From Branchiostoma floridae (Eukaryota; Chordata; Leptocardii; Amphioxiformes; Branchiostomatidae): a DNA stretch of 64,000 nt. The notes under the pieces are model-generated. The model saw nothing but the letters and a program-made list of their open reading frames with translations, ran no database searches and was not told the origin of the DNA. Shown piece after piece: positions 1,177 to 31,546 of this stretch; the first letter of the stretch is position 1, and each line of letters begins with the position of its first letter. The DNA lies in the NCBI RefSeq assembly GCF_000003815.2, contig NC_049979.1:11633381-11697380 (forward strand), read 5' to 3'. A program made the position numbers and the translations under genes.

Positions 1177-3466
1177 CTATGCATGTTTGAGTGCTTCGCG
1201 CTGACTGAGCTTCGCCAGCCTGGCCTTGTTGTCCTGTACAAACGTTTTGACGTCCTGGGGGTGAAGTTTGTGGTGCTCCCGCAGAGCCCAGCCGATGGCT
1301 TTCTGGATGAAGAACTCCTTCTCGTGGCAGCACTGCAGACACATCCTGAACAGGAACATCCAATTTAGTGCAGTCATACACCAGATCTTACATGCACTAT
1401 GTTTTTATAGGCTGTTTTCAGCCACTTGAAGTTTGGTGGGTCAATAGAGTTGCAAATAGAGCCAGTTAACAGCGTTCATGGCAGCTATGAATAAAGTCAG
1501 GGCTGATTACACAGGCCATGTACTGGCGTGCTTTCAAACATGAATGCTTACTTATCTTACACTGTGCACTTAACAAATCTGTATGTAAGGAAAGAATAAA
1601 AGCCTGGCCCAGTTGATATGAAAAAGATGACAAACCTAGTCTGTACCTGCACCTGTACAAAAATTGGGCCAAAGTGAATTTTATTTATGGTCCCCTGGAT
1701 AATGTTTTTCCATTAACACAAGAACTCTTGTCTATAGTGACCACCTGTCTACATTGACCAGATTTTATTGGTCTCCAGAGTGGTCTTCTTGGGCAGGTTT
1801 GACTATATGGTTTAAGAAAGAAAGCATATGAAATGGCCTCATGTATAAAGGCATAGTACATAAGGAAATTGACCCACCTGAAGAGCCTGTCCTGGTCGGT
1901 GTTGTGTTTAGCCTTGAGCTGGTGCAGGATGGCGGTTCTCCTGAGCCACATGTCATCATCTCCCACCCACTCCTCCATCACAGGAACCATGCTGGTTGGG
2001 TACCTCAGCACAAACTTACCAACAACTGGAAGGAAACACAAGGTTGTGTTTTTGAGGGGGCATCACACTGAATAAGCGCGTTCTAAACTGAATTTGTGTC
2101 GCCCTTGCCTTGATGGGAATATCATGCAAAACGTACAAAGATGACAAAGAGTAAAAAGTCTAAGCGTAAAAAGTTTATCAATGAAATTCATTGAGCTCTG
2201 TCAAATTGCTCTGCTGCAACAATGACTTCAGCTTCAGTAAGTTACGGAAGGTATCAGTCGAAGTGTTGCAAGCTCCTTTCCCAGATTACCATGTTCCACC
2301 CACTCCTAGGTTACCACAGGATGCTACAAGGAGACTAAATCAGGATTACCTGATTTTTTTTGTTTCATTTTCTTTCGTGATCAGAATTAGATCTACCACC
2401 TCAAGAAATACTGATATCTATGGACAAACAGGAGGATGTTTGTCAAGCTGTAGAGAGAAATAAGATGCCATCCACTCCAGAGGAGAATCAGGGTCTGGAG
2501 GAGAATAGTGACCATTGTGCAGTTAGAATTCTTCCTCCTCACCGTTGACAGCCAGCATGTCCACAGTGTCCCACCAGCTCTTGGTGGTGATGAGTTCCTT
2601 CACACAGTCCAGCGAGGCCTTACACCTCTCCTCGTCTTCAGCCAGGACCTGCCAGTGCCTGGTCGCCAGGTCTGTGCCGCACATCTGGAACTCTCGCTGA
2701 GGCTGTTGCCATAGCAACAGCAGCAGCTGATGATGACTCTTCACATCTAGCGATTTGAAGTCAGTGAGAACCTGCAGGCAACAGACACATGCAGCAGACA
2801 GAATGTTGCATCCCTGTCACAGTTTTGGTAAAGCAAGGGATTAGATAAAATGTCCTTTGGGCATGTGAGATAACAGTGTACATGATCATTCTTACCCGGG
2901 CCATTTTGCGGGTATCAGTTCAACTTCCTTACTTTAAGAAGACAATTATTATAATAAGTAACTTCTCTAAGCAGAAAAATCTTGACCACATAGAATGGAC
3001 ATGATATGAATTTCAGTGTCTTTGGCTTGAGGTTGTCTTTGATAGTTCTCAAATATCTCTCTAAAGTTAAATTGCCAAGCCAAATTCCAGCCACCCTCAG
3101 CAGCCTATTGTTGGGTTCGAAGGCTTCTTTGAAGGCAGTGGGAAGGAAAATGACCCTTAATATTTCTAAGTAACATTTAGTGAAAAGGCTTTTATCTAAC
3201 ATTTGTACCTGTTTGTCTATGGCTCTTCTTTCTGGGGCCGACAGACCGTAGAATTCAAACTGGTCACGCATGTACCTCTTCATCTGTATCGCCTTTGCAC
3301 TGTCAGCCGCTTTACTGTAAGCCTTTCTCAGTTTGTTGACGATCGTGTCTGCAATGTTACCATTACTTTTACATTTTCGCAACTTTGTCTGAGACCCGGA
3401 AGTAACACTCACCCACGTCTGTTGGCGTAAAGCTTTAGTTTTTGTACATTTCTTCACTTTTGGCAT
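1177..3466 (-). CDS. DNA alkylation repair protein, AlkD-like
   Basis: Four exons on the minus strand encode 267 aa: 3466-3209, 2771-2543, 2025-1878 and 1345-1177. All introns are GT-AG and the phases join without a break. The family (HEAT-repeat DNA glycosylases such as AlkD) excises positively charged alkylated bases. Recognisable pieces are MKRYMRDQFEFYGLSAPERR in exon 1, SWWDTVD at about residues 151-157, MWLRRTAI at about 188-195 and the C-terminal KAIGWALRE motif. These supply the Trp (153), Asp (157) and Arg (191 or 192) matching the catalytic Trp109, Asp113 and Arg148 of Bacillus AlkD as I recall them. The start is the first Met of a basic leader (MPKVKKCTKTK) that could be a nuclear signal. 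Divergent from the phosphatase gene with 418 bp between start codons. Activity itself is inferred. Confidence 0.9.
1688..1805. repeat. Dispersed repeat of the GTGACCACCTGTC family
   Basis: This intron segment resembles other copies in the window (near 8070-8145, 9755-9832, 12150-12245, 38688-38745 and 41935-42058). Shared words include GTGACCACCTGTCTACA, CCAGATTTTATTGGT and TTCTTGGGCAG. The better preserved copies have inverted ends of the form AAACCTGTC...GACAGGTTT, so this is probably a degraded non-autonomous DNA transposon family. The ends here are not sharp. Confidence 0.6.
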
Positions 3467-3884
3467 GCTTCTGAGAACACGGAATAACTCTATTAGACAG
3501 TAATATAATAGACTGTACCAAATATTGCTTTATAGGACGAAACAAAGCGTAACATTCAACGTGAACAACCAGCCCATGTTCAGGGCCCATGCGTGTTCCC
3601 GCCAAATGTCAAAGGTCATAAGTTGTTACGTCACTAATATTTGCGGCTCTTTTGGAGTACTTTACGATCAACATTTCGCGGGCAGATGAACTGATGTAGT
3701 ATATCCGTATACTCGACTTCCCCATACAGATATATTTAACCTCAGGGACGTGCGGTCTACTTTTAGGTAACGAATGTTCAAGGGCGGACATATTTACTTC
3801 TCAACCCAGTTCATGTTCTAGGCGCGTGACCAGATTGTGTTTGAAGAATTGAAGTAACGGTACCAGAGTCAACTGATCGGTACA
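3467..3884. promoter_or_regulatory. Divergent promoter region between the AlkD-like gene and ACP7
   Basis: Only 418 bp separate the start codons of two genes transcribed away from each other. I see no convincing TATA box. A shared or overlapping bidirectional promoter is inferred from spacing alone. Confidence 0.55.
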
Positions 3885-6800
3885 ATGGGGTCCGACTTCT
3901 CATGGCAGGCGCCGATCTTCATGGCAATTCTCGCCGCTGTTGTTGTCTCTGCAAGCCCCGTTATCAAACGGGACATTTACGGGGGGTGGCCACAACAGGT
4001 GCACCTGTCCTACGCAGGTGGGTATTTTTAATCTCCAAGCAGATCCTACGGTGCCATAATATAAGATAGTATCAAAGTTGGCCAGGGAGTGTAGCCGGCT
4101 AAAGGGAGTCAAACGGGAAGTTTGATACTATACATTACGCACCGTGGATCTGGTTGGAGATTAGGTATTTTAACTTTTTTTGCTAAGGCACAACCCGCCG
4201 TACGTGCAACTTTTTTAATCTCCAAGCAGATCCTACGGTAGCATAAATTAGTATCAAAAGCTGGCAGAGGAGTGAAGCCGGCTTAGGAGTGTGCTTTGCT
4301 GCATGGCAAATGTAACGTTACACCTCTTGGCTGACTACACTCTTTGGCCAGTTTGGTACTATCTTATGCCATTGTAGGATCTGCTTGGAGATTACAACTT
4401 TTTAACCTCCTTGTTATGTGCAAAAACGTGGGAATTTTTGTGGACATTGCACCTTACCGGACTTTGGGACCCCCCCCCCGTTACCATTTTAAATGCAAGC
4501 ACCCGCGAAAAAATGTTCAAGTCAAAACCCTCAGAAACGCTATTTCCTGCATTTTAAGGGCAAATTTTGCTGCTAGACTAAGCTAACTTAAATGGCAGCC
4601 AATACGAATAAGGAAACCGTACGTAAGTAAGTACGGCCAGCATACGGTAACGAAACACACTCCTAGGCCGGCTTCTCTCCTCTTTTCAAACAATGTTACA
4701 GTATCTGCTTGTGAGGTAAATATTTGCATTCCTGCATCTCCTCTTGTCCTTCATACCAACATGAATAATTTGTGGGAAAGGAAATAGGAAGAAGAACTCG
4801 GAGTGGCTCTCAGATATCAGCTTTTGTTCACTCTAATTGAGTTTGTTGTAATTGGAGCATACTCTAGCAGTATGATGAACTTTTCAGGTGGACTTCTTGC
4901 AATGGCAGTCAAAGATAGCTTACTCAGCCTAGCGACCATAAACACAGGGATGGTTACCCAGGGCTGTCAAAGTATTCATACATATAGTACCATATAGATA
5001 TAGTACTAACTTTATGGAAGTTTTTTGGGAGTTTTCGGAATACATACAAGGTAGGAAAGCCTGTTTGTTTCCCTTGTGAGCCAGGCTCAGCCAGCGAGAT
5101 GATGGTGACCTGGAGCACAGCCAACCAGACGGACTCAGTCGTGGAGTACGGGGAGGGCGGGCTGATGAAGACGCCCCGGGGGTCCAGCGTGGAGTTTGAG
5201 GATGGAGGAGATGAACATCGCGTACAGCACATCCACAGGGTCACGCTGACTGGGCTCACTCCCGGGCACACGTACAGTGAGTGGCTGTATTATAATCACT
5301 GTGTAATTCCCCCAATCTGTGTTACCATAATGCATTGTACTACAAAACCAATGCTCTTTCTTTGGTAAGTCTTGTCTAAGAGCTAATGAGAATTCTAAAA
5401 AAAGTTTCAACCATCAACTGTCGAACATCTCAATGCAGGCAAGCTAAGGTACATATTGACAAAGATTTTAAAAGAAGTCATGGTAGTTAGAGGGAGGAAC
5501 CTTTTCAAAAATAAATCTGATTGCTTGAGTCAGACTTCTTTAAATTTCATCTTCACTGTTTGTTGTCATGATGTTTCACTACAATTGTTATTTTGTTATT
5601 CATGTTGAAAGTAACAATTTCTTGTGAACAAAAACAGTGGAAGTAAATGACCGCCTGCCTTTAGCTGAGCACTGAAACATGGTGATGATGATATATAAGA
5701 ATTTTTTGTGATTTTGTCAGTGTACCACTGTGGCAGTATGGAGGGAGGCTGGAGTGACTTGTTCGTCTTCACCGCCATGAAGGAGGGAACTGACTGGAGC
5801 CCATCCTTCGCTGCCTTCGGAGACATGGGCAACGAGAACGCCCAGTCTCTGAGCCGGCTGCAGGGAGACACACAGAGGGGCATGTATGACTTCATCCTGC
5901 ATGTTGGTAAGTGATGTCAGAGTGAATTAATGGTATGTATTGAATTGTATATTTATAATCAAATAATCTTGCTTGATCTATATCTATATTTGAACTACCG
6001 GTAGGCATTTTTAGCAGGCTCTACAGTCTGGGCATCTTTGGCTTACAATTGTCATGCAATAAAGTTCTTCTTCTTCTCTGCTTGTTTCAGGTGACTTTGC
6101 ATATGACATGGACTCTGTAAGTTATTTTGCATACTTATGTATGGATTTTACTATACATATATAAAAATCATATGTCTTTTCCTGTAATTGGCTGCTATTA
6201 TGTATCAGCAACACTTCCTAGGCTGCCATATATTGCCTAATATTTCAAGCCAAATGGAATCAAAAACACTTGACTGCATTGTTTTTTCAGGAGAATGCCC
6301 GTGTGGGCGATGCCTTCATGAACCAGATCCAGTCCATAGCGGCCTATGTGCCCTACATGACATGTGTGGGGAACCATGAGAATGCTTAGTGAGTCCTCTG
6401 TTACTTGTTCTGCTCTGCATAGCATAAGCTGATACATCCGCTGATTCATGGGTGTGATTGTGTATTGTGCTGATGGATTTTTAAAAATATGTCCTTATAT
6501 TATGGCATATTCATTCAACATTGTTGTTAAAGGAAATTGCAATAAGGTCAAACTTGAATGAAATTCTCTGGAGACTGCAAGCCTGTCATTTTGAAGGAAA
6601 GAGATTTTATACATAGAGGCCAACATTTTCAGTGTATGATACGATCCTTCTTATTAAATTGGTTCGGCCACAACTTAATTTGGCCATGCTGTATTCCCTC
6701 AGCTGGACTAAGATATTTTCTTCTTGTCCCTGCAGTAACTTCTCCAACTATGTGAGCAGGTTCTCCATGCCTGGTGGGGTGCAGAATCTGTGGTACAGGT

Positions 6801-13165: not shown

Positions 13166-15703
13166 AGTCTGCGTCTCTCCCCCCAGATGAGTGGCCTTCT
13201 CTCGTCGCCTGCCTCAGTCTCCGGTGGCGCGAGGTCATACTCTCGTTTTCTGGACACGACGAAACACTGGACGGTCACCATGGAGGTGGTCAGGGCCCAG
13301 ACCAGGAACAACACCCAGCCAAAACTCTGCAGAAGAAAAACACTACTGATTACAAGACATCTGTACCTGTGTGTTTTAACTGGTACAATGGTCTAGGGGT
13401 TTCCATATTTGCCTCGTATTTGGAAAGTAAGGAGACATGCCAAAGATGAATGGCACATACTGCTTTTTATAGCCTTTGCAGTGACAACAAAGAGTATAGG
13501 AGTTAAAGACACCCAGCCATATTCTAGCAAGTACCAATAGAATGATTCGAATTTGAGCACCTGAAAAAATGTTAGGGTATTGCATGTTTAGCCATTTTGA
13601 TCCTCACCTGTGCTGCCTGCATGTTCCTGAAGAATGCCAACATGGTGGAGTGCCCGCTGGAAGCATCATACTCAGAAGCAGCCACCTCACAGCTGTGGCG
13701 GGACAGGAAACATTTGTTAGTTTTGTCAGACCAGAAAGAGGAACAAACTTGACTTCTCTATATGTCATCTGTATAAAGAACACCTGTACATCACCTCACC
13801 TGTCTGTGCTCCGTCCCTCCTGCAGGTGTCTGCACTTGTACGTTACCTCCCCTGTCTACAGAACACCTGTACATTACCCCACCTGTCTACAGAACACCTG
13901 TACGTTACCCCACCTGTCTACAGAACACCTGTACATTACCCCACCTGTCTACAGAACACCTGTACATTACCCCACCTGTCTGCAGAACACCTGTATGTTA
14001 CCCCACCTGTCTACAGAACACCTGTACATTACCCCACCTGTCTACAGAACACCTGTACATTACCCCACCTGTCTACAGAACACCTGTACATTACCCCACC
14101 TGTCTGCAGAACACCTGTAAGTTACCCCACCTGTCTACAGAACACCTGTACATTACCCCACCTGTCTACAGAACACCTGTACATTACCCCACCTGTCTAC
14201 AGAACACCTGTACATTACCCCACCTGTCTACAGAACACCTGTACATTACCCCACCTGTCTGCAGAACACCTGTAAGTTACCCCACCTGTCTACAGAACAC
14301 CTGTACATTACCCCACCTGTCTACAGAACACCTGTATGTCACCTCACCTGTCTATAGAATGCCTGTACATCACCTCACCTGTCTACAGAACACCTGTACA
14401 TTACCCCACCTGTCTGTGCTCCGTCCCTCCTGCAGATGTCTGCACCAGTCCTGGTACCCGGTTGTCAGGGTAACGGCTGCCACCAGGCTAGCCAGGCAGC
14501 CCAGCAGACACACCACCATCTGGGCAGACTGCCACCTGTCAATCATAGTTAACCATGTATCACTAACACAATCCACCTGTCAGCCAAAAATCATTTGTCA
14601 ATAGGTATAGGTCTTCTTCTTGTCCTTTTCATCCTAACGGACGATCAGTTCAGATGGACTCGGTGATGTGCGACCAGACCGGCACAGAAAATGCAGAGGT
14701 CCAGACCTGAACCTGGACATAATTGTCTTGTAAATGGGCGATACTCAAAACAATGGTCCATTTCACTACAAATGAATCTGTTTGGTGGAGTATCCCACTC
14801 CCACAATGCACCGATACCCACCCCTACTTGTCAATCATACAAAACCACCTGTTAATTAAGCATGCATAACCACCTGTAAATAATATGGAAACACCTGTCA
14901 ATCATCCCAAACCAGCTGTCAATCATGCAAGCTACCTGTCAATCGTAAAAAAACTCCCTGTTAATCATAAAACCATCTTCTCAATAATAAAGAAACATCT
15001 GTCAGTCCAATAAAAGTCCCTGTGTTATTGTGAGGGTACAGTGTGTGTAAGATGTTCTATAGTGTGTGCACCATCTAGGTCTATAGAATCTGATATTTAC
15101 CAGACTTCGTAGTGGACAGAGGCGATGCAGCTGACCAGCATGAGGAGCAGTGCTGCAGCGGAGGTCACCAGGGCCTGGTACAGGCAGTAACTACACACAC
15201 TGTCACTGCCGTATACCTGTATAACATATCATACACAAACTGTCATATACCTGTATAACAACAATACAAACACTGTCACACACCTGTATGACATTGCAAG
15301 AGTAGCGAAGAACAGAATAGAATGTAATAGATAAGGATAATGTTATAGTAAAGTCATTCTACGCCTTATGTTTTGCCTGGCGTAAGAAGTACATGTAGTA
15401 TAGAATAGAATAGAATACTGGTAGAATAGAACAGAATACTGGTAGAATAGAACAGAATACTGGTAGAATAGAATAGAATAGAATAGAACAGGAATGGAAT
15501 GGAATAGAATAGAAAATGGAATATTTTCTATGTTTGAGTTGACTGACCTGAGACTGGGAGTCCAGGTTGAAGTCCCCGAACAGCAGACATCTCTGCCCGG
15601 CGTCGTTCCTGCTGATGGTGAGGATACAGGCGACGATGATGCCACACACCACACACAGGGCCTGCACAACTCCCAGCACCTTAGCAAAGTGGGGACATGC
15701 CAT
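13138..15703 (-). CDS. TMEM179B: Four-pass membrane protein, TMEM179/TMEM179B family
   Basis: Five coding exons on the minus strand give 223 aa, near the family's usual 219-233: 15703-15548, 15216-15101, 14535-14410, 13692-13608 and 13326-13138. All introns are GT-AG with matching phases. Four hydrophobic segments are visible: VVQALCVVCGIIVACILTI, ALVTSAAALLLMLVSCIA, MVVCLLGCLASLVAAVTL and WVLFLVWALTTSMVTVQCFV. The block QRCLLFGDFN after segment 1 matches RCLLF/RCPLY of TMEM179 proteins, and FFRNMQAAQSFGWVLFLVWA matches the segment-4 entry of TMEM179B. The first ATG follows a good acceptor (CCCCCCTCCTAACAG), implying a 5' UTR exon upstream. Function of the family is not established. The introns are packed with repeats copied from the exon edges. 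The B assignment over the 179 paralogue is tentative. Confidence 0.85.
13775..14434 (-). repeat. 31-bp minisatellite copied from the exon 3 donor of TMEM179B
   Basis: About 17-18 copies of a 31-bp unit (plus-strand CCCCACCTGTCTACAGAACA then CCTGTACATTA). Read on the gene strand, every unit contains GTAGACAG followed by GTGGGG, the same junction as the real donor of exon 3 at 14410/14409. The array is bracketed by two copies of the exon edge itself (GCTCCGTCCCTCCTGCAG at about 14419-14436 and 13809-13826), the outer one with its own GTGAGG donor. Confidence 0.92.
14530..15010 (-). repeat. Degenerate repeats copied from the exon 3 acceptor of TMEM179B
   Basis: The acceptor edge of exon 3 reads CCACCTGTCAATCATAG on the plus strand at 14533-14549. 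Variants (CCACCTGTTAATTA, ACACCTGTCAATCATCC, CAGCTGTCAATCATG, CTACCTGTCAATCG) recur through 14565-15010 in the upstream intron, spaced roughly 20-30 bp. Confidence 0.75.
15191..15297 (-). repeat. Triplicated exon 2 acceptor of TMEM179B
   Basis: The block ACACACTGTCACTGCCGTAT then ACCTGTATAACA spans the acceptor at 15216/15217. Two further copies follow: ACACAAACTGTCATATACCT from about 15233, and ACAAACACTGTCACACACCT from about 15266. The period is about 33-40 bp. Confidence 0.75.
15400..15500. repeat. Simple tandem repeat, AGAATAGAACAGAATACTGGT
   Basis: A unit of about 21 bp repeated three to four times, breaking down into plain AGAAT/AATAG pentamers, in TMEM179B intron 1. Confidence 0.85.
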
Positions 15704-20000: not shown

Positions 20001-21964
20001 TATACGCACTGACAATCACACAGCAGTCAGCAACAAAAGCTGTCTCTTCCTTATGTTTCATTATTTTTTTTAGGAGATTAGGATAGTCTGACACAGCGCA
20101 GTGTACCAATGTCTAATAGCCTCCACATGCCCCAAGAATTCTTTGGTCAAAATCTATAAACTGCAGAAGTTTGACTACCAAATCAGTTGTTGTCATCTGC
20201 AGAGAGTTTGTTGATAAGCACTAAGAAAGTATGGAACGATAGTCTCTGTGTTGATCAGACTGTGGAGTCACATGACCTGTCTGCCCCCTCCCCAGCCTGG
20301 TGTGTTCCGCCCTGAGAGGCAAGATCCCAGACCCGACGTACGCTGACATTGAGAGCAACTTCAAGGTCAGACATCTCTTCTTTTGTTTTCTGATGTACAA
20401 TGTACTTCAGGTCATGAGTCTGTATTTTGGGTGGGGACAAATTAAGGTTGTTTATTTTTCTTACACTTGGGTAACTGACCTGTCAGTTAAACTGTTAAAC
20501 TGCTATAAGTTGCAGAGATGAGAAAAATCTTTGTGTTGCGAAAGATTTGACCCAAAAAAAGCATTTTTCTTCAAAAGTTCCTTATGGGATATTTAAAAAG
20601 TGAAAGTAGTAAGTTTCTCAAGGATTCAGAGTAGTGTGTAGTTGATCTTTGACTTGTTCATATAATGAATTTGTTTATGTGAACATATTTACATATTTAA
20701 AGCTCAGATGATAAAGACTTTGTGTAAATATCATTTTCCGTGGGTGTTAGGCTAAGTACAAAATTTGAAGAGCGGCACAGTGTCCTAGGGGCAATAAATT
20801 TGGAAGGTTTAAGGGATTCATACCCAGTTCAAACATGGTTCATACCCCAGCCAGACCATACCAGAAACTTTTAAAATCTAAAATACTGTAGGAAAGACCG
20901 TAAGTTGAAATAACAATACTTGATTTTCTGTATCTGTAACGCTGTTCTCTGAACCTTGACTGCGTCTCTCCCCCAACAGAACCTGTCGCGGTGCATCGTG
21001 AGTGTCGCCTCCGGTCTGATCCACAGCAAGGAGCTGAAGGACTTCTTTGTGGACCTGGTGGAGAAGGTGAGTGAGCAACACTTGTTCCTTTCAAACTCCT
21101 GTAAATTCATGTATCTCTAATCTTATCATAGCACAGTAAAAACAGGTGTTATAAATGCAACAATCAACATGTTGAAGATGTCAGTCCAAAAACAAGGTGT
21201 TGTACTCCTTCCCCATTTGTGACTGCTCAAATCAGTCATCTCTGAACACAGTGAAGTTTACTTTGTACTTGTTGATGATGCATAACGTGGTGCCTTATTG
21301 ACTTGCTGGACTACTATCATAAAGTTAATATATCTCACACTACAGATACAGTATTCTATATACAGTACTGTATTCTAAATACAGATGTATGTATATCTGT
21401 TGAGTTTGTTTCTGTGTTTGTTTGTGCAGTTCATCGAGCCCTGCAGAAACGCCAGGTGGAGTAAGAGGGACGTTGAGGCGTTCCTGAAGGCGTACGAGGC
21501 GGCAATCCAGCAGATTCCACAGCTGAAACGGTGCGTTAAGTTCGTTTTCAGTCTCTGACTCTCTTGTAACATATTATTTTTATTGTTATTATTAATGAAG
21601 TAAAGTCGTCATGTTAGAAACGTTCAAAACGTTTTATTCCCTTATAACTTTTTTGTCTGCATGTTCGGAGAGTACTAGCCGTCTTCCTAGTACATGTAGT
21701 TTTTGTCTGAACTCCAAATTTCACTGATATGACCGCAGCATCCGCAGTTGCTTTCATTTCTAATATGTGACATGAAACATTAACAAATGTTGTGAAAGAT
21801 AAAGATGATTTTTAGTACTTCAGTTGAACCATTTAAAAAGAGCTGTTTTGAGCCATTGTGCATGAAATTATTTTTACTGCAGGTACCAGCCACACTTGCT
21901 GACCGTGTGGACCCGCTACATGACCACGCTCAAGAAATGCATTCTGCAACTGTATCACAGCTGA
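17059..21964 (+). CDS. FIBP: Acidic FGF intracellular-binding protein
   Basis: Ten exons encode 363 aa, matching human FIBP (357-364 aa): 17059-17140, 17630-17828, 18489-18615, 18880-18980, 19350-19483, 19878-19986, 20296-20365, 20980-21066, 21430-21530 and 21883-21964. Landmarks I recognise include [82 protein letters not shown] and [19 protein letters not shown] binds intracellular FGF1 and is linked to mitogenic signalling; its biochemical role is unclear. Intron 5 uses a GC donor (AG/GCAAGT), required to keep the frame. The stop codon opens a 30-bp minisatellite, and intron 2 carries decayed copies of the exon 2 donor edge. Head-to-head with TMEM179B. Confidence 0.96.
17800..18300 (+). 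repeat. Decayed copies of FIBP exon 2 edge with CA repeats
   Basis: The exon 2 end GCAGCTGTGCAGAGGACACT then GATAGAGAA/GTAAGGCACA is followed by related blocks near 17931, 18031 and 18158. Each is trailed by CA-rich microsatellite. The copy at 18031 keeps ATGTAAGGCACATA; the others have lost the donor. Spacing is about 100-125 bp. Confidence 0.8.
19484..19877 (+). other. GC-AG intron in FIBP
   Basis: Exon 5 ends GGGGCGGCAG and the intron begins GCAAGTC, the consensus for GC donors. The only nearby GT (19488) would shift the frame and lose the conserved [12 protein letters not shown] segment of exon 6. The acceptor is CTCCCACCAG. Confidence 0.85.
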
Positions 21965-22690
21965 CACCTGGAACAGCAGCTGTAATATAGGGGGCACCTG
22001 GAACAGCAGCTGTAATATAGGGGATGCCTGGAACAGCAGCTGTAATATAGGGGACACCTGGAACAGCAGCTGTAATATAGGGGACACCTGGAACAGCAGC
22101 TGTAATATAGGGGACACCTGGAACAGCAGCTGTAATATAGGGGGCACCTGGAACAGCAGCTATAATATAGGGGGCACCTGGAACAGTAGCTGTAATTTAG
22201 GGGACACCTGGAACAGCAGCTGTAATATAGGGGACACCTGGAACAGCAGCTGTAATATAGGGGACACCTGGAACAGCAGCTGTAATATAGGGGACACCTG
22301 GAACAGCAGCTGTAATATAGGGGACACCTGGAACAGCAGCTGTAATATAGGGGACACCTGGAACAGCAGCTGTAATATAGGGGGCACCTGGAACAGCAGC
22401 TGTAATATAGGGGACACCTGGAACAGCAGCTGTAATATAGGGGACAGCTGGAACAGCAGCTGTAATATAGGGGACAGCTGGAACAGCAGCTGTAATATAG
22501 GGGGCACCTGGAACAGCAGCTGTAATATAGGGGGCACCTGGAACAACAGCTATAATATAGGGGGCACCTGGAACAGTAGCTGTAATTTAGGGGACACCTG
22601 GAACAGCAGCTGTAATATAGGGGACACATGGAACAATAGCTGTTATATAGGGGACACCTAGAACAACAGCTGTAAACTGATATAGGGGAC
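21950..22690 (+). repeat. 30-bp minisatellite starting at the FIBP stop codon
   Basis: About 24 copies of CACCTGGAACAGCAGCTGTA plus ATATAGGGGA, with a strict 30-bp period. It begins immediately after the stop TGA at 21962-21964, whose context CTGTATCACAGCTGACACCTGG overlaps the unit. Copies differ by few substitutions, so the array is young. It is probably transcribed in the 3' UTR. Confidence 0.95.
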
Positions 22691-23700
22691 ATTGAACATC
22701 AGCTATGCCACAGCTGACATGGCTGCAGTACCACACCTGACAACTGGAAGTGCAGCTGTATCGCAGCTGGAACAGCAGCTATGATGCAGCTGAGTACATT
22801 TTGAGCAGCAGCTGTATCACAGCTGCAGGCAGTACCACACCTGATATCTGGAAAGTGCATCTGTATCACAGCTGTGCCTAGAAGAGCTAATGTGTTATAG
22901 GGGACACATGACATTGAAGCTATAATGTAGGTGATAGCTGGTACCTGTAACAGTTGCTGTGCTTTACCTGATAACTGGGACTACAGTTGTACGAAACCTG
23001 TGACCATGAATAGCAGCCGTTTCGCAGCTGAGACCAGAAACAAAATCGTAGCTGGAACAGCAGCTGTAATGTAGGGAACACTTTGAACTGAAGCTATGCC
23101 ACAACTGATGCCAGGAATAACAGCTGTTGTACAGCATGGAACCTGGATGAGAAGATATATCACAGCTGACACCTGGGATAGTAGGTGTGGTGCAGCTGAC
23201 ACATGGAATAGCAGTTTTGTACAGTTGGAACTCTACCTACGAATAGCTGGAACTGCAGATGTAGTGTAGGCAACACTTAGAATAGCAGCTGTATAGCAGC
23301 TAAACAAGGAACAGCAGTTGTATCTCAGCTGGCACCTGGAATGGCAGCTGAATTTTAGCTGGAGCCATGAACAGCAGCTGTAATACAGCAGACACTTGAA
23401 ACAGCAACTGTATTACAGCTAACACCTGAAATAGCAGCTGTATCACAACTGACAATTGGACACCAACTGTATTATAGCAGGCACCTGGAATAGCAGCTTA
23501 TCACAACTGACAAATAGTTCTAACAGCAGCTACATTGCAGCTGTCACCTGCAGTTGCAGCTGTATTACAGCTGACAACTAGAACAGCAGCTGTAATACAA
23601 GAAACATTTGGAATGGTCTATCATAGATGCACCTTAGCTGTAACTGAATTATGGAACAGCAGATATGTCATTGTTGACACCCAGAACAGCAGCTGTCATA
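22690..23700 (+). repeat. Older degenerate part of the same satellite
   Basis: Diverged units continue for a further kilobase, with words such as GCAGCTGTATCACAGCTGAC, ACCTGGAATAGCAGCTG and AACAGCAGCTGTAATACA. Several keep TGTATCACAGCTG, the exact sequence of the FIBP terminal codons. Confidence 0.8.
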
Positions 23701-24751: not shown

Positions 24752-27700
24752 ATGGCTGCAATAAGGAAATCAGCTGATCTAAAGACGTGTGAGACAAACG
24801 AAACAAGAGAAAAGTGAGTATACTATCACGTACGTTACAAAAATGTACTACGTTTTAAGAGGGTCTGCATACCATTTTCCATGTGGCATGTCCTTAGCCA
24901 TACGTGTCATCGTGCATATTTGCCTGCTTGGTCCAGAGTATACATTATGTTTCAACGACGCCCTTTCCTATTAGGCCTTCACACTGAAATCGAATTAGCA
25001 GGAATCAAGCAGAACCAGGCGTAACTGAGAAAGAGAAGAACACTGATAGGTAAAAAAATGTACAAAGGACGGAAAATTAATTTCATACTTGTGGTATTTG
25101 GAAGTTACGTATAGGTATACATTGTTGAATATGACTTATGCAAATGAGGACTTAAGTAGACTGTGGTACCATTGACCTGCAAGTTAACATACAGTTTATC
25201 TTTGAACTTAATCTATCCAAGGAATTTTATATAATCTATCACACCGCATTGCAGCTTTAAAAAACTGAATTGCACCGGCGTATACACATGACTGTCATTT
25301 CCAGAACATTAAAAAAAAACTTTTAAAATCGACACGATAGTTAACGTTACACAGTTGAAAAACTAATGATAATTCAAAATCAACGAGTACACGTGATTAC
25401 ATTTAACTTCTCTTTTTCCACACAGTTTGGTTGACAGAAGGTCTCTACTCGCCAGTCATACAAGTCAGTCCATCAACAGTGAAGTCAATCTAAGCTGGCT
25501 CTGGCCAGTTCAGCTGGCAGGTTCCCCTGCTGTCAGGGACGTTTTTCAACAAGAAGCCACACAAGGGAGTTTGCCGGCCCGACACAGCACCGTTTCGTTC
25601 CTAGGAGACGCCAGAGCTGGTAAGACAAGTCTGGAAAAACACCTGCTCGATAAGTCCTTTGATTCTGCTGAAGTAGCGACTAAAGGACTTGAGTTCGATT
25701 TGGTACAAACAGATGTAACGGAAGTGGGTGAAGGGTGGAAAACAGTTCACGAAGGGCCCTACAGCAGATATGACACTGGACGCGCACAGTATGTTGCCAA
25801 AGAAATTTTGAGAGAGGCTGAGCTAGTGGGCAATCCATATCCAACACCAGCCGTGACGGCGTTGTTGAACTACGCACTAACACTTGCCGTAATTGCCATG
25901 ATTACGGGGTCAGTAGGTTTTCAGCTGGGGTTTGGTGTTGTTCTTTTATTAACAACCGGGATTTTCAAGCTGTTCGGTCAGAGCTACAATGTAGCTAGGG
26001 AATACGGTGTCAATGTAACTATAGCACACGTCTCAATCAACTTCTTGCTAAGTGTCTTTCGAGATATCTTCTCTGTATTTGGAAGCAAACAGTCGACTGG
26101 GTTCCCCTTCCTCCAATACGTTATGTTTGTTCCAACTATAGTCTTAATCGCGTTTGTTGTCTCGGCGCCATTTTCTGTTGGCGGCAGACCCGGCATAGCC
26201 CTGGCCTTTTGCCTAATGCGCGCACCTTCTCAGCTATCTTTTCAGGACTTAGCTTCAGGTCTTCACTTAATCGTTAGTGGATCAGAGTGTCTTTTAGCTG
26301 CCGCCAATCTAGGTGGCATCGTAGCATCGTCTAGAGGGTGTTTGATGCCAGTATCACTGGTGTTGCTACTGATAGCTGTTGCTCAGGGCGGCGCCAGTGA
26401 GATGCTGGGGTACCTGCTGATTTTGGTTGGTGGCTTTGTATCAGGGGCAACAGGTTATATGACCTATCACAACATACGAAGACTTTGCAGTTCCTTTCGA
26501 CGTGGCCTGCAATTACAAATCTTCATGGGTCCAATAGGGTTTGTCTATGGCATTGGATTATGTTGGCTATTCGGCTGGCAGATGGATTTGCCATCAACGT
26601 GGAAAGATGCTTATTATATAGTGCCGAACTTAGTGGCCATTTTCCTCATTGTACAAGTAGAAAAGCAGAGAGTGTATTGGGCATCTCAGGAACTTAGAAG
26701 CTATCCTGTCCTTCTTGTTAGTAGGAGCGTCAAAACCTTTAAGGACGTAAAAGATTTTCCTCTCAAGTTTACTCTGATTGACTTTGCTGGAGATACTGTC
26801 TATCACTGCACACACCACCTGTTTCTATCAAATCTAGCAATTCACCTGATTGTCTTTAACATGGAAAGATTAGAACAACAGCCAGGTTATATCAGACGTA
26901 TTTGCTACTGGGTTCAGTCAGCTATCGTCCACGTGCAAAATCCCAGTCCTCATATTTTCATTGTTGGAACACACTCGAGCAGTCTGTCGGTAGAGAGGAG
27001 AACGTTTCTATCCCGTAAGGTAAGCAAGGCATTGCTGAGCAATAACAAGTTTACTCAGTCTATTGTGGGAAAACCAGGTATCAAGAAGGATATTGTGTTT
27101 TGCGTTGAAAACTCCATACCTCTTCATCAAGATGACCAAGCCCGTCTCCTTCGAAAAACCATCATGGAAGTCGTCGCTTCGTCCTTCCAATCCAAGAGGC
27201 GCATCCCTATCAAGTGGCTCAAAGTCAGTGACTTCATCAACAAGTACAAATCCAGTTCCACAGACACGTGTATCCTGGACAAACGTACCTTGTCTGACAA
27301 GCTGCGAAATGAAGGTGTTGTTGAGGTAGAAGATGAGACAGAAGAGTTTGAGGAGATGCTAAAGTTTTACGACAAAATTGGAGAAGTCAAGGTTATGGGT
27401 GATGTTGTAGTCTTGAATCTAAAAGCTTTGGTGCAGCTTGTCATAGAGCTTGTGGAGCTTGACTGTGATGATCATGAGCTTGGAATCGTTCACGTCAGTA
27501 CTTTGCGCAAAGTATGGGATTTTTTGACAGTGGAGAATTCCATTTCCACCATCGCACTGTTCGAGAGATATGACATTCTCTGCCCGATCTCAAAAGAGCA
27601 GTATCTTGTGCCGTTGCTTCTGGAGACAATTGAGGAGACCAACGCCGAGAAAAGTAAGCAAAAGAAAACGGATCATGGGGCTTCGGCATTCTGGGACGCT

Positions 27701-28913
27701 ACGGGATCTGACACTGTCCTCTACTTCAAGTTCTACAAGTTCTATCCAGAAGCCATCTTTCTCCGCCTGCTTGCCCGATGTTTGTCAATATCACAGAAAA
27801 CCCACGATCAAGGTCGTGGTCTTGACCGAGATGTCTACAGAAATGTGGGCAGATTCTACCAGGGACATGAGTTCTACTACAAAGTGGAGCTTGTATGTCA
27901 ATCTGTGGAGCAGAACATGATCCAGGTCATTGTCAAGTGTGCTCCAGACAGAAGTCCTCATTCTCTACTGTCCAGACTTCACAAGGACTTACAGCAGATC
28001 CGAGACAGGGACTTCCCTTACCTGAACTACACAGTGGGACTCCCATGTCCAGCATGCAGTCCCGGCTGTAGCAGCGAAGGAGAGAGTGAGGTCGCCCCTC
28101 CACACATCCTGAGGATAGCAGGACATGACGAAGAGCTCCCACGACCCGGAGAGAAAGTAACTCTGATGTGCCGAGGAAAAGCCTTTGAGGTGGACCTGGG
28201 GGAACACGTGAGTACCTAGCGCCTTGTTCCGTTATGATAGAATCGAAAAGTCTTAATTTGGGGAGATGCGTGGGCTTCAAACATGACAAATTGTGGAGAA
28301 AAGTCAAAAGAAGACCATTTGTATTTCAAACCACGAATGAGGTGGAATAACCTGCCAAGCAACATTTCCTTCCAACAGCAACCGGCACTGGATGCTGTCC
28401 AACCAATGAAGACTGGAGAAAGCAGCAGAACGTCTGAACAGAAAGGTATGTTGCTATTTTCCACTTCTGCAATTTTGCTTAGTTTGCTACCAGAATTGCA
28501 AATCAACTAGGCTATCTACAGATTTGAGAGAGGGACATATTTGACATCACAGTATGTCTTCTCAAGATGAATGTTAACGTTAGAAAACAAACAAGTTGTT
28601 GTTCCCCTACGCAGGTGGCGTTGGTCTCGTGGACTCCACGACCATCCGACACCTGTCCATTCTCCTGGACCCGCCCGCACCCATCTTTGGGAACAACTGG
28701 AGGGCGCTGGCTGACGAACTGGGGCTGTGCTTCCAGGACATTTGCTACATCGAGGCAAAGCACAACCCTACAGAGATGGTTCTAGACATGTATAGTAAGA
28801 ATACACCAACAGCTAACACGAACCAAATCCACAGGGCTTTGTTAGACATAGACAGACCGGATGCCGCAGAAATTACCCAACCTACCTCTGTCCAATCGCC
28901 AGCAACACAATGA
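24752..28913 (+). CDS. Roco-type GTPase with membrane block inside the G domain and C-terminal death domain
   Basis: Four exons give 1069 aa: 24752-24813, 25426-28207, 28379-28445 and 28615-28913, all GT-AG. A short first exon (MAAIRKSADLKTC) joins a 2.8-kb exon. The P-loop GDARAGKTS is at about residues 81-89, followed by a switch-I-like KGLEF. The expected G3 appears only at about 473 as LIDFAGDTVYHCTHHLFLSN, then IVGTHSS at about 533-539, in Roc style. Between them, residues 165-430 form six to eight hydrophobic segments (for example ALTLAVIAMITGSVGF, VPTIVLIAFVVSAPF, LVLLLIAVAQ, YLLILVGGFVSGA, IVPNLVAIFLIVQV). A COR-like region follows (VWDFLTVENSISTIALFERY), then a GLPCPACSPGC cysteine motif, and a death domain from the last exon (LSILLDPPAPIFGNNWRALA, DELGLCFQDICYIE). 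The order resembles the C-terminal half of DAPK1. Roc-COR and death calls are by eye; the role as membrane-bound innate or cell-death signalling is inferred. Confidence 0.85.
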
Positions 28914-30567: not shown

Positions 30568-31063
30568 AGCCAACCCGAAGACACATTTCTCAGAGGAGCG
30601 GTCACAAAGTGACAAGCAGCCACTGCAATCAGCTTTGACATCGCCAAGTTTACCGGCCTCAGAGGCTCAGTGCTTCCGCACAGGACCTGATACAACCGAC
30701 TAACAAACTACACTTCGCCAGAAGTTGGTCGACTGAGACTCCCCAAACAATAGTCAAACGGACAGCAAATAAAGGTATGCCGGAAAGTAACTTTGGAAGT
30801 CTTACTGAAACATCATGCTCTTGCATTACTCTGAAAAATGCTGGTGCTTTACATTACATTACAAATGTTGTAAAGCTCATTGTAGAGAGTGGGACACATT
30901 ACAAATTTAATCGGTGACACTATCGTCAGCAAGGTGGGTGAATAATCTAGTCCCTGAAATTGAACACCCGGTGAAGTCTGTACCACTAGTACATGTCTAT
31001 CTCAAAACATGAAGTTTAATCTCTGGAAGGTAACATGGAAACATCCCTTTTTTCAGTTACAAG

Positions 31064-31546
31064 ATGTCAATGCAACAAGCCAGCCCCCGCCAATCGGCTC
31101 CTTCCCCGCGGCAACCGCCCGGCCCATACGTAACCTACCAGTCCGGTCGACAACACACAGCTTACCCGCCGACGGCTGGCACCCAAGGCGGCGGGGCCTC
31201 CAGCAGCAGCGGATTCAGCACTTCCAGCCCCGGACAACCGGCTCCCTACCCGAAGCAACAACCCGGGCCGTATACGGTCTACCAGCCCAGCGGACAACAT
31301 CCAGCTTATCCTCCAACGACTGGCCCCCAGAACAGCAAGGGATCCAGTGGCAGCGGATTCAACACAGTAGCCGTGCCAGTCGGACCGGGGGTGACTCCGG
31401 GACCCTGCGTGGAGGAGCAGCGTCAGAGCAAATGTACTGGAACTCGCTGCGCCATCGCAGTAGTCGTGGGTATCTGTGTGGCGGCGGCGTGTTCCATACC
31501 TGCTATAATAAGAGCTGTCAATGCGGCAAATGCCCTTGGCTGGTAA
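31064..31546 (+). CDS. Proline-rich tail-anchored membrane protein, copy 1
   Basis: A single coding exon encodes 160 aa, with the ATG seven bases after the acceptor of a 5' UTR intron. No family is recognised. The N-terminal 100 residues are rich in Pro, Gln, Gly, Ser and Tyr and contain a duplicated segment of about 45 aa: PRQPPGPYVTYQSGRQHTAY at about 15-34 and PKQQPGPYTVYQPSGQHPAY at about 63-82. A Cys-containing linker leads to a C-terminal hydrophobic segment, CAIAVVVGICVAAACSIPAI, at about 129-148, with only a short tail. There is no signal peptide, so a cytosolic N-terminus and tail anchor are inferred. The stop lies inside GGTAAGT, which looks like a donor, so an alternative spliced C-terminus is possible. 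Paralogue of the gene at 37829; the copy at 34241 is broken. Confidence 0.8.
   Translation: MSMQQASPRQSAPSPRQPPGPYVTYQSGRQHTAYPPTAGTQGGGASSSSGFSTSSPGQPAPYPKQQPGPYTVYQPSGQHPAYPPTTGPQNSKGSSGSGFNTVAVPVGPGVTPGPCVEEQRQSKCTGTRCAIAVVVGICVAAACSIPAIIRAVNAANALGW

Follow-up and report, generated by a model that had tools for sequence, protein, structure and literature searches.

A Branchiostoma floridae Roco-like gene with a hydrophobic, probably multi-pass membrane block inside its Roc domain and a terminal Death domain

Main Finding

We analysed a 64,000-nucleotide stretch of the Branchiostoma floridae genome (hereafter, the window) and found in it one gene that encodes, in this order, the first half of a Roc domain, a linker, a hydrophobic block, the second half of the Roc domain, a COR region, and a Death domain. 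Judging from sequence, we consider it reasonably probable that the product is a membrane-anchored, probably polytopic Roco-Death signalling protein, and that it belongs to an amphioxus family of at least 12 loci.

Gene Model

The predicted gene lies on the + strand and has four exons encoding 1069 aa in total, as derived from frame phases and splice signals (Table 1). The coding part of its second exon (25426–28207, 927 codons plus 1 nt) sits inside the longest open frame in the window (25397–28219, + strand, 940 aa), confirming the original prediction of a single 2.8-kb exon with a frame unbroken through the insertion. In an alignment of nine copies, the exon 2 donor was GT and the exon 4 acceptor was AG in every copy; the exon 3 donor was GT in five copies, the window copy included, and GC in four (L002, L005, L007, and L013). 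The AG preceding exon 2 was read in the window copy only. Counterparts of exon 1 with a similar ATG, frame, and GT donor were detected upstream of other copies, for example MAATRNSAGDKARKTYETTDK in L014, to which the exon 1 stretches of L013 and L017 were near-identical.

Table 1. Exons, motifs, and domains of the gene; positions are those of the window.
Feature	Position	Strand	Evidence or remark
Exon 1	24752..24813	+	ATG; MAAIRKSADLKTCETNETRE.., phase 2; adds only about 20 residues
Exon 2: split Roc, hydrophobic block, and COR	25426..28207	+	GT donor at 28208, AG at 25424-25425
G1/P-loop GDARAGKTS, residues 60-68	25604..25630	+	Invariant in the 8 rows of alignment A1 except residue 62
Switch I T-K-G, residues 85-87	25679..25687	+	T85 and G87 invariant in A1
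Linker with W104 and model helix	25727..25849	+	Layout matched in soluble-insert Roc-COR genes, correspondence by eye
Hydrophobic, probably multi-pass membrane block, residues 142-412	25850..26662	+	Hydrophobicity, charge, dN/dS
Beta2-beta3 of G domain, residues 432-452	26720..26782	+	Model secondary structure
G3 motif DFAGD, residues 452-456	26780..26794	+	D[FY]AGD in 11/11 listed copies
G4 position THSS, residues 515-518	26969..26980	+	THxD without the Asp
COR-A and COR-B, residues 594-879	27206..28063	+	Pfam; model superposes on Roc-COR structures
Exon 3 (67 nt), linker	28379..28445	+	AG acceptor in 9/9 aligned copies
Exon 4, Death domain and stop	28615..28913	+	Pfam Death 6.5e-12

A Split Roc Domain

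The Pfam Roc profile matched the window exon with an E-value of 6.9e-12 (46.1 bits, cut-off 27) in two stretches, the best of which covered residues 435–516, and the Death profile (PF00531) matched the last exon at 6.5e-12 (45.9 bits, cut-off 22.6). A Ras-type match over the P-loop half (residues 58–97) reached 20.9 bits and remained below its cut-off of 21.6, as did the matches to COR-B (26.8 bits, cut-off 27) and COR-A (18.5 bits, cut-off 35.3). Profile searches, suggested earlier as a check on all three domains, thus recovered Roc and Death but left both parts of COR under their thresholds. The COR region is positioned directly after Roc, the arrangement by which Roco proteins are recognised, and Roc was detected at E <= 0.1 in all eight members of the family alignment A1. 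Compared with PDB, the eight-member family profile matched the Roc-COR chain 4wnr at 5.5e-11, with two aligned stretches of which that on the P-loop half scored best, and LRRK2 from 1.6e-10 in the second Roc half only. The single window protein matched 4wnr at residues 35–89 and 438–492.

Between the end of the P-loop (residue 68) and the start of DFAGD (residue 452) lie 383 residues, where about 385 had been predicted. The same spacing was 35–67 residues (mode 39) in 71 of 79 prokaryotic Roc loci, a set fetched from the best 80 of 284 confirmed matches and biased by its retrieval with a short-spaced Roc query; the other eight loci did not fit the motif pattern. Short spacing was also seen in six ordinary Roc genes of the amphioxus genome (12 stretches fetched). 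An uninterrupted Roc with short spacing, a usual but not definitional Roco trait, is therefore absent from the window protein. Among the Roc domains that we examined, the split is unusual, in agreement with the original view that known Roc domains lack such a membrane block, and the Pfam matches and the spacing together support a single Roc domain into which a hydrophobic block is inserted and which is followed by COR and Death.

In a structure model, both Roc halves joined into one G domain with the block placed between switch I and beta2, a more precise location than the one first given and one at which related amphioxus genes have soluble sequence. Bringing the halves together is what the earlier proposal called for, but the alignment behind the model was guided by Roc relatives without an interruption and so leaned towards that outcome. 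The model superposed on Roc-COR structures. Foldseek TM-scores, normalised by the query, were 0.22–0.34 in the 32 best rows. About three fifths of the block had a pLDDT under 50, and the block folded alone had a mean pLDDT of 42. The model is compatible with the two Roc halves forming one Ras-like G domain from which the block is looped out between switch I and beta2.

Composition and Topology of the Hydrophobic Block

The 271 residues of the block were 7.4% charged, compared to about 25% in the flanks, and held seven hydrophobic 19-mers (KD >= 1.5), compared to one across the other 657 residues. Among the eight family members, each block held 5–8 such 19-mers, with one in the rest of each protein; 6.5–12.6% of block residues were charged, and hydrophobicity averaged over the members had eight peaks. 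The predicted size (some 265 residues) and number of hydrophobic segments (six to eight) were thus close to what was measured, but a home-made, uncalibrated topology script counted one to four helices, disagreed between copies, and gave an odd number, three, as its best solution for the window copy.

This ambiguity, together with the soluble inserts at the same site in three related genes, speaks for a soluble helical domain of high hydrophobicity, or for a block associated with the membrane without crossing it, in either case an elaborated form of those inserts. We consider such a block quite improbable, as the contrast in 19-mers between block and remainder recurs in each of the eight members and the blocks are so poor in charged residues.

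No relative of the block was found in Pfam (best match E 2.1), and exon 2 had no NCBIfam match at E <= 10. A motif, CLMxxPSQ (residues 262–269, positions 26210–26233), was exact in the window, L005, and C17 copies and almost so in other close copies; it is kept though the block otherwise evolves fast.

Selection and the Integrity of the Open Frame

Six close paralogues were open through the block, at 70–73% identity. Over the seven close copies (21 pairs), the mean dN/dS of the block was 0.37, which indicates purifying selection, with means of 0.13 for the P-loop half, 0.17 for G3–G5, and 0.27 for COR. Among the seven regions compared, constraint was strongest in the P-loop half, and dN was highest in the block (0.305). 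Constraint varied inside the block: residues 371–400 were strongly constrained, and residues 281–340 had the highest dN/dS (0.55–0.68). When a 1020-nt stretch was shuffled by mononucleotides, 0 of 2000 shuffles stayed open. No in-frame GT-AG pair (donor codons 86–145, acceptor codons 405–448) was conserved in all seven close copies.

These observations bear on whether the fusion is only apparent, arising from a retained intron, a pseudogene, or an assembly join. Decay does exist in the family, as a C2 copy in two frames and a frame shift near the COR end of L007 attest, but the open paralogues, the dN/dS below 1, and the lack of a conserved in-frame splice pair make such an artefact very improbable. 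A retained intron or assembly join in particular is rejected on the basis of the open paralogues, the dN/dS, and the shuffles, and the earlier statement that the frame is not an annotation join holds.

The mean dS between close copies in exon 2 was 0.375 in COR and 0.815 in the block. The lower value in COR might reflect gene conversion between the copies.

The Family in the Amphioxus Genome

At least 12 family loci were identified in the genome (513 Mb): the window gene, a tandem array of six on C15, and single loci on C8, C2, C12, C17, and C18. A single open frame ran through the block in eight of them (the window, L002–L007, and L009). L008 was masked at about query residues 76–238. The C17 and C18 loci carried the Roc halves on separate pieces, so that the pairing of these halves is inferred, and C18 was partly masked. 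A Death exon was detected by tblastn downstream of nine of the 11 other family loci and found no match in the examined DNA of C12 and C18. A search for a second copy within the window gave, apart from the gene itself, nothing with E below 0.4.

In a Roc2-COR tree, a 100/99 branch separated all 11 family rows from eight other amphioxus and 12 prokaryotic rows; the tree was rooted at its midpoint, left out L008 and the soluble-insert group, and came with a program warning of long branches. Three of 10 block comparisons stood out, namely those of the window block with the N-terminal part of the C17 block (z 6.7, 0 of 300 shuffles as high), with C18 (z 4.1), and with C12 (z 3.4; one of 300 shuffles as high in each of the latter two). 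The values were 1.4 for C12–C17, 1.7 for C12–C18, and 2.2 for C17–C18 (10–32 of 300 shuffles as high), and four comparisons of C-terminal parts gave z from -0.8 to 1.2, none standing out. By these comparisons, one homologous block is likely shared across the family in its N-terminal part.

Between the tandem copies, a weak Death-like stretch was noted in L014 (about 6590–6718), L017 (about 4953–5060), and L013 (about 1837–1730, - strand), with 39–50% identity over 36–43 residues in a short frame flanked by stops. It may be the remnant of a Death exon, or an alternative one.

Nucleotide-Binding Motifs

In an alignment that included 36 prokaryotic Roc sequences (A2), T85 was invariant and G87 was present in 90% or more. 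The G4 Asp was missing in seven of the 11 family copies read, the window copy included, and present in L006, C12, C17, and C18; the motif read THTD in L006 and THRD in L009, C17, and C18. All 11 copies had Asp at the position of Ras Gln61. These two substitutions may have altered the GTP cycle or abolished it. In the window copy, G4 without its Asp may weaken GTP switching, and normal GTP binding is not assured.

The same two features favour a membrane-anchored pseudo-GTPase scaffold, in which the block would serve for anchoring only and Roc-COR, devoid of normal nucleotide cycling in this clade, would be a platform for dimerisation and Death presentation. Such a scaffold seems rather unlikely to us: the P-loop half is the region under the strongest constraint, and four copies retain the G4 Asp.

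Comparison with Known Proteins

The window protein shares Roc and COR, the G1 and G3 motifs, and a predicted Roc-COR fold with Roco proteins such as LRRK1/2, DAPK1, MFHAS1, and prokaryotic Roco. It differs from them in the insertion of about 344 residues in Roc (88–431), which includes the hydrophobic block, in having DFAGD in place of DFGGQ or DFAGR, and in lacking the Asp of G4 THxD, which is usual but not definitional. DAPK1 has the layout kinase-ankyrin-Roc-COR-Death and resembles the window protein in having Roc-COR and then a C-terminal Death domain. The window exon differs in the hydrophobic block inside Roc and in the lack of a Pfam match to kinase or ankyrin at E <= 1, a threshold at which LRR was not matched either. 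A C7 locus (L100), considered as a Roc with G3 only, was set aside: a masked (N) stretch covers its P-loop region, and it reads as LRR-Roc. Among viral contigs, 30 stretches fitted one of two peptide patterns and none was confirmed as a relative.

Three amphioxus Roc-COR genes with soluble inserts (L112 on C10, L113 on C18, and L114 on C6) carry an insertion after switch I at the position seen in the window family, with which they share a W and a helix-like stretch there. Their inserts, unlike those of the window family, are soluble and spread over several exons, with about 155 residues in L112 by exon reading. Using the C17 copy as a query, COR similarity was detected at E-values of 3e-12 (C10), 2.5e-11 (C18), and 1.9e-6 (C6); the window copy had no match to the three loci at E <= 0.001. 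L114 has a Death exon upstream of Roc (2.7e-10) that presumably belongs to the same gene.

Kidins220/ARMS are examples of KAP P-loop NTPases. Transmembrane segments inserted within a P-loop NTPase domain are named for KAP proteins in the title of a 2004 paper by Aravind. Such proteins resemble the window protein in having transmembrane segments, predicted only in the latter, inside a P-loop NTPase domain, and differ from it in having no Roc-COR; the window exon had no Pfam match to the KAP family at E <= 1. KAP is called an ATPase in an excerpt of one paper (PMC8195603).

ROC/COR domains are described in putative TLRs and MyD88-like proteins of Aplysia in excerpts of a second paper (PMC9334734), where they are combined, as in the window protein, with immune receptor or adaptor domains, including Death in a figure legend; unlike for the window protein, these excerpts mention no membrane block inside ROC. 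In brown algae, one ROC domain has a non-conserved sequence inserted, according to a further excerpt (PMC11378527). Among the open-licence literature matches listed, no paper described a Roc domain with a membrane block within it, by title and start of abstract. The parts of the window protein are known, their arrangement is a variant of the Roco family not described for Roc among those matches, and the KAP ATPases are a precedent in principle.

Proposed Mechanism and Significance

For the membrane-anchored Roco-Death protein that we favour, the G domain, COR, and Death would be on the cytosolic side. With both Roc halves, COR, and Death cytosolic, the block would have an even number of membrane crossings. 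COR dimerises Roco proteins and would do the same here at the membrane, with the block fixing the location of the protein. From its position at the switch I–beta2 junction, the block could influence or sense the nucleotide-bound state. A change in the Roc-COR dimer would then cluster the Death domains, and these clusters would recruit death-domain adaptors, leading to immune or apoptotic signalling. Of the membrane-anchored switch originally proposed, Roc-COR-Death with a hydrophobic block inside Roc stands up well; the switch itself is weakened by a G4 position (THSS) without Asp. Against the favoured reading also count the Asp at the Gln61 position, the failure to find a Pfam relative for the block, the odd helix number given by the topology script, the scores and alignment bias of the structure model, the seven block comparisons that did not stand out, and the C12 and C18 loci without a Death-exon match. 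We infer membrane anchoring and signalling to death adaptors from the protein sequence.

A more far-reaching version, which we regard as unlikely, would make the protein a receptor, GTPase, and adaptor in one chain. A fast-evolving multi-pass membrane sensor would be wired into the switch I–beta2 junction, membrane events would shift the interswitch, Roc-COR dimers would nucleate Death assemblies, and the tandem-expanded family would act as innate-immune or cell-death receptors. The interswitch of Arf couples nucleotide to membrane; here, the same coupling would run in the reverse direction, from membrane to nucleotide.

If the membrane-anchored Roco-Death architecture is real at the protein level, a Ras-like G domain can tolerate a multi-pass membrane domain beside its switch, a design known from KAP ATPases would be extended to a GTPase, and the protein would offer a direct physical test of the idea that membrane modules can act as drivers of a small-GTPase switch. 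The comparison suggests a stepwise route from an ordinary Roc via a Roc with a soluble insert to a Roc with a membrane insert. Receptor families would be expected to show a tandem cluster of this kind, with its greatest variability in the membrane block, and a protein laid out in this way could pass a membrane signal on directly as cell-death or immune signalling.

Other Features of the Window

Elsewhere in the window, an open frame at 2915–3529 (- strand) had a partial match of 41 residues to a DNA alkylation repair profile (PF08713, 8.2e-8). A Pro/Gly/Ser-rich open frame of 170 aa at 31034–31546 (+ strand) had a hydrophobic stretch near its end and no Pfam match at E <= 0.1. Long open frames of short tandem protein repeats (TEHLYITPPV.. 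and a second string of 10 protein letters not shown) were found at 13777–14604 and 21924–22698, and are perhaps minisatellite DNA.
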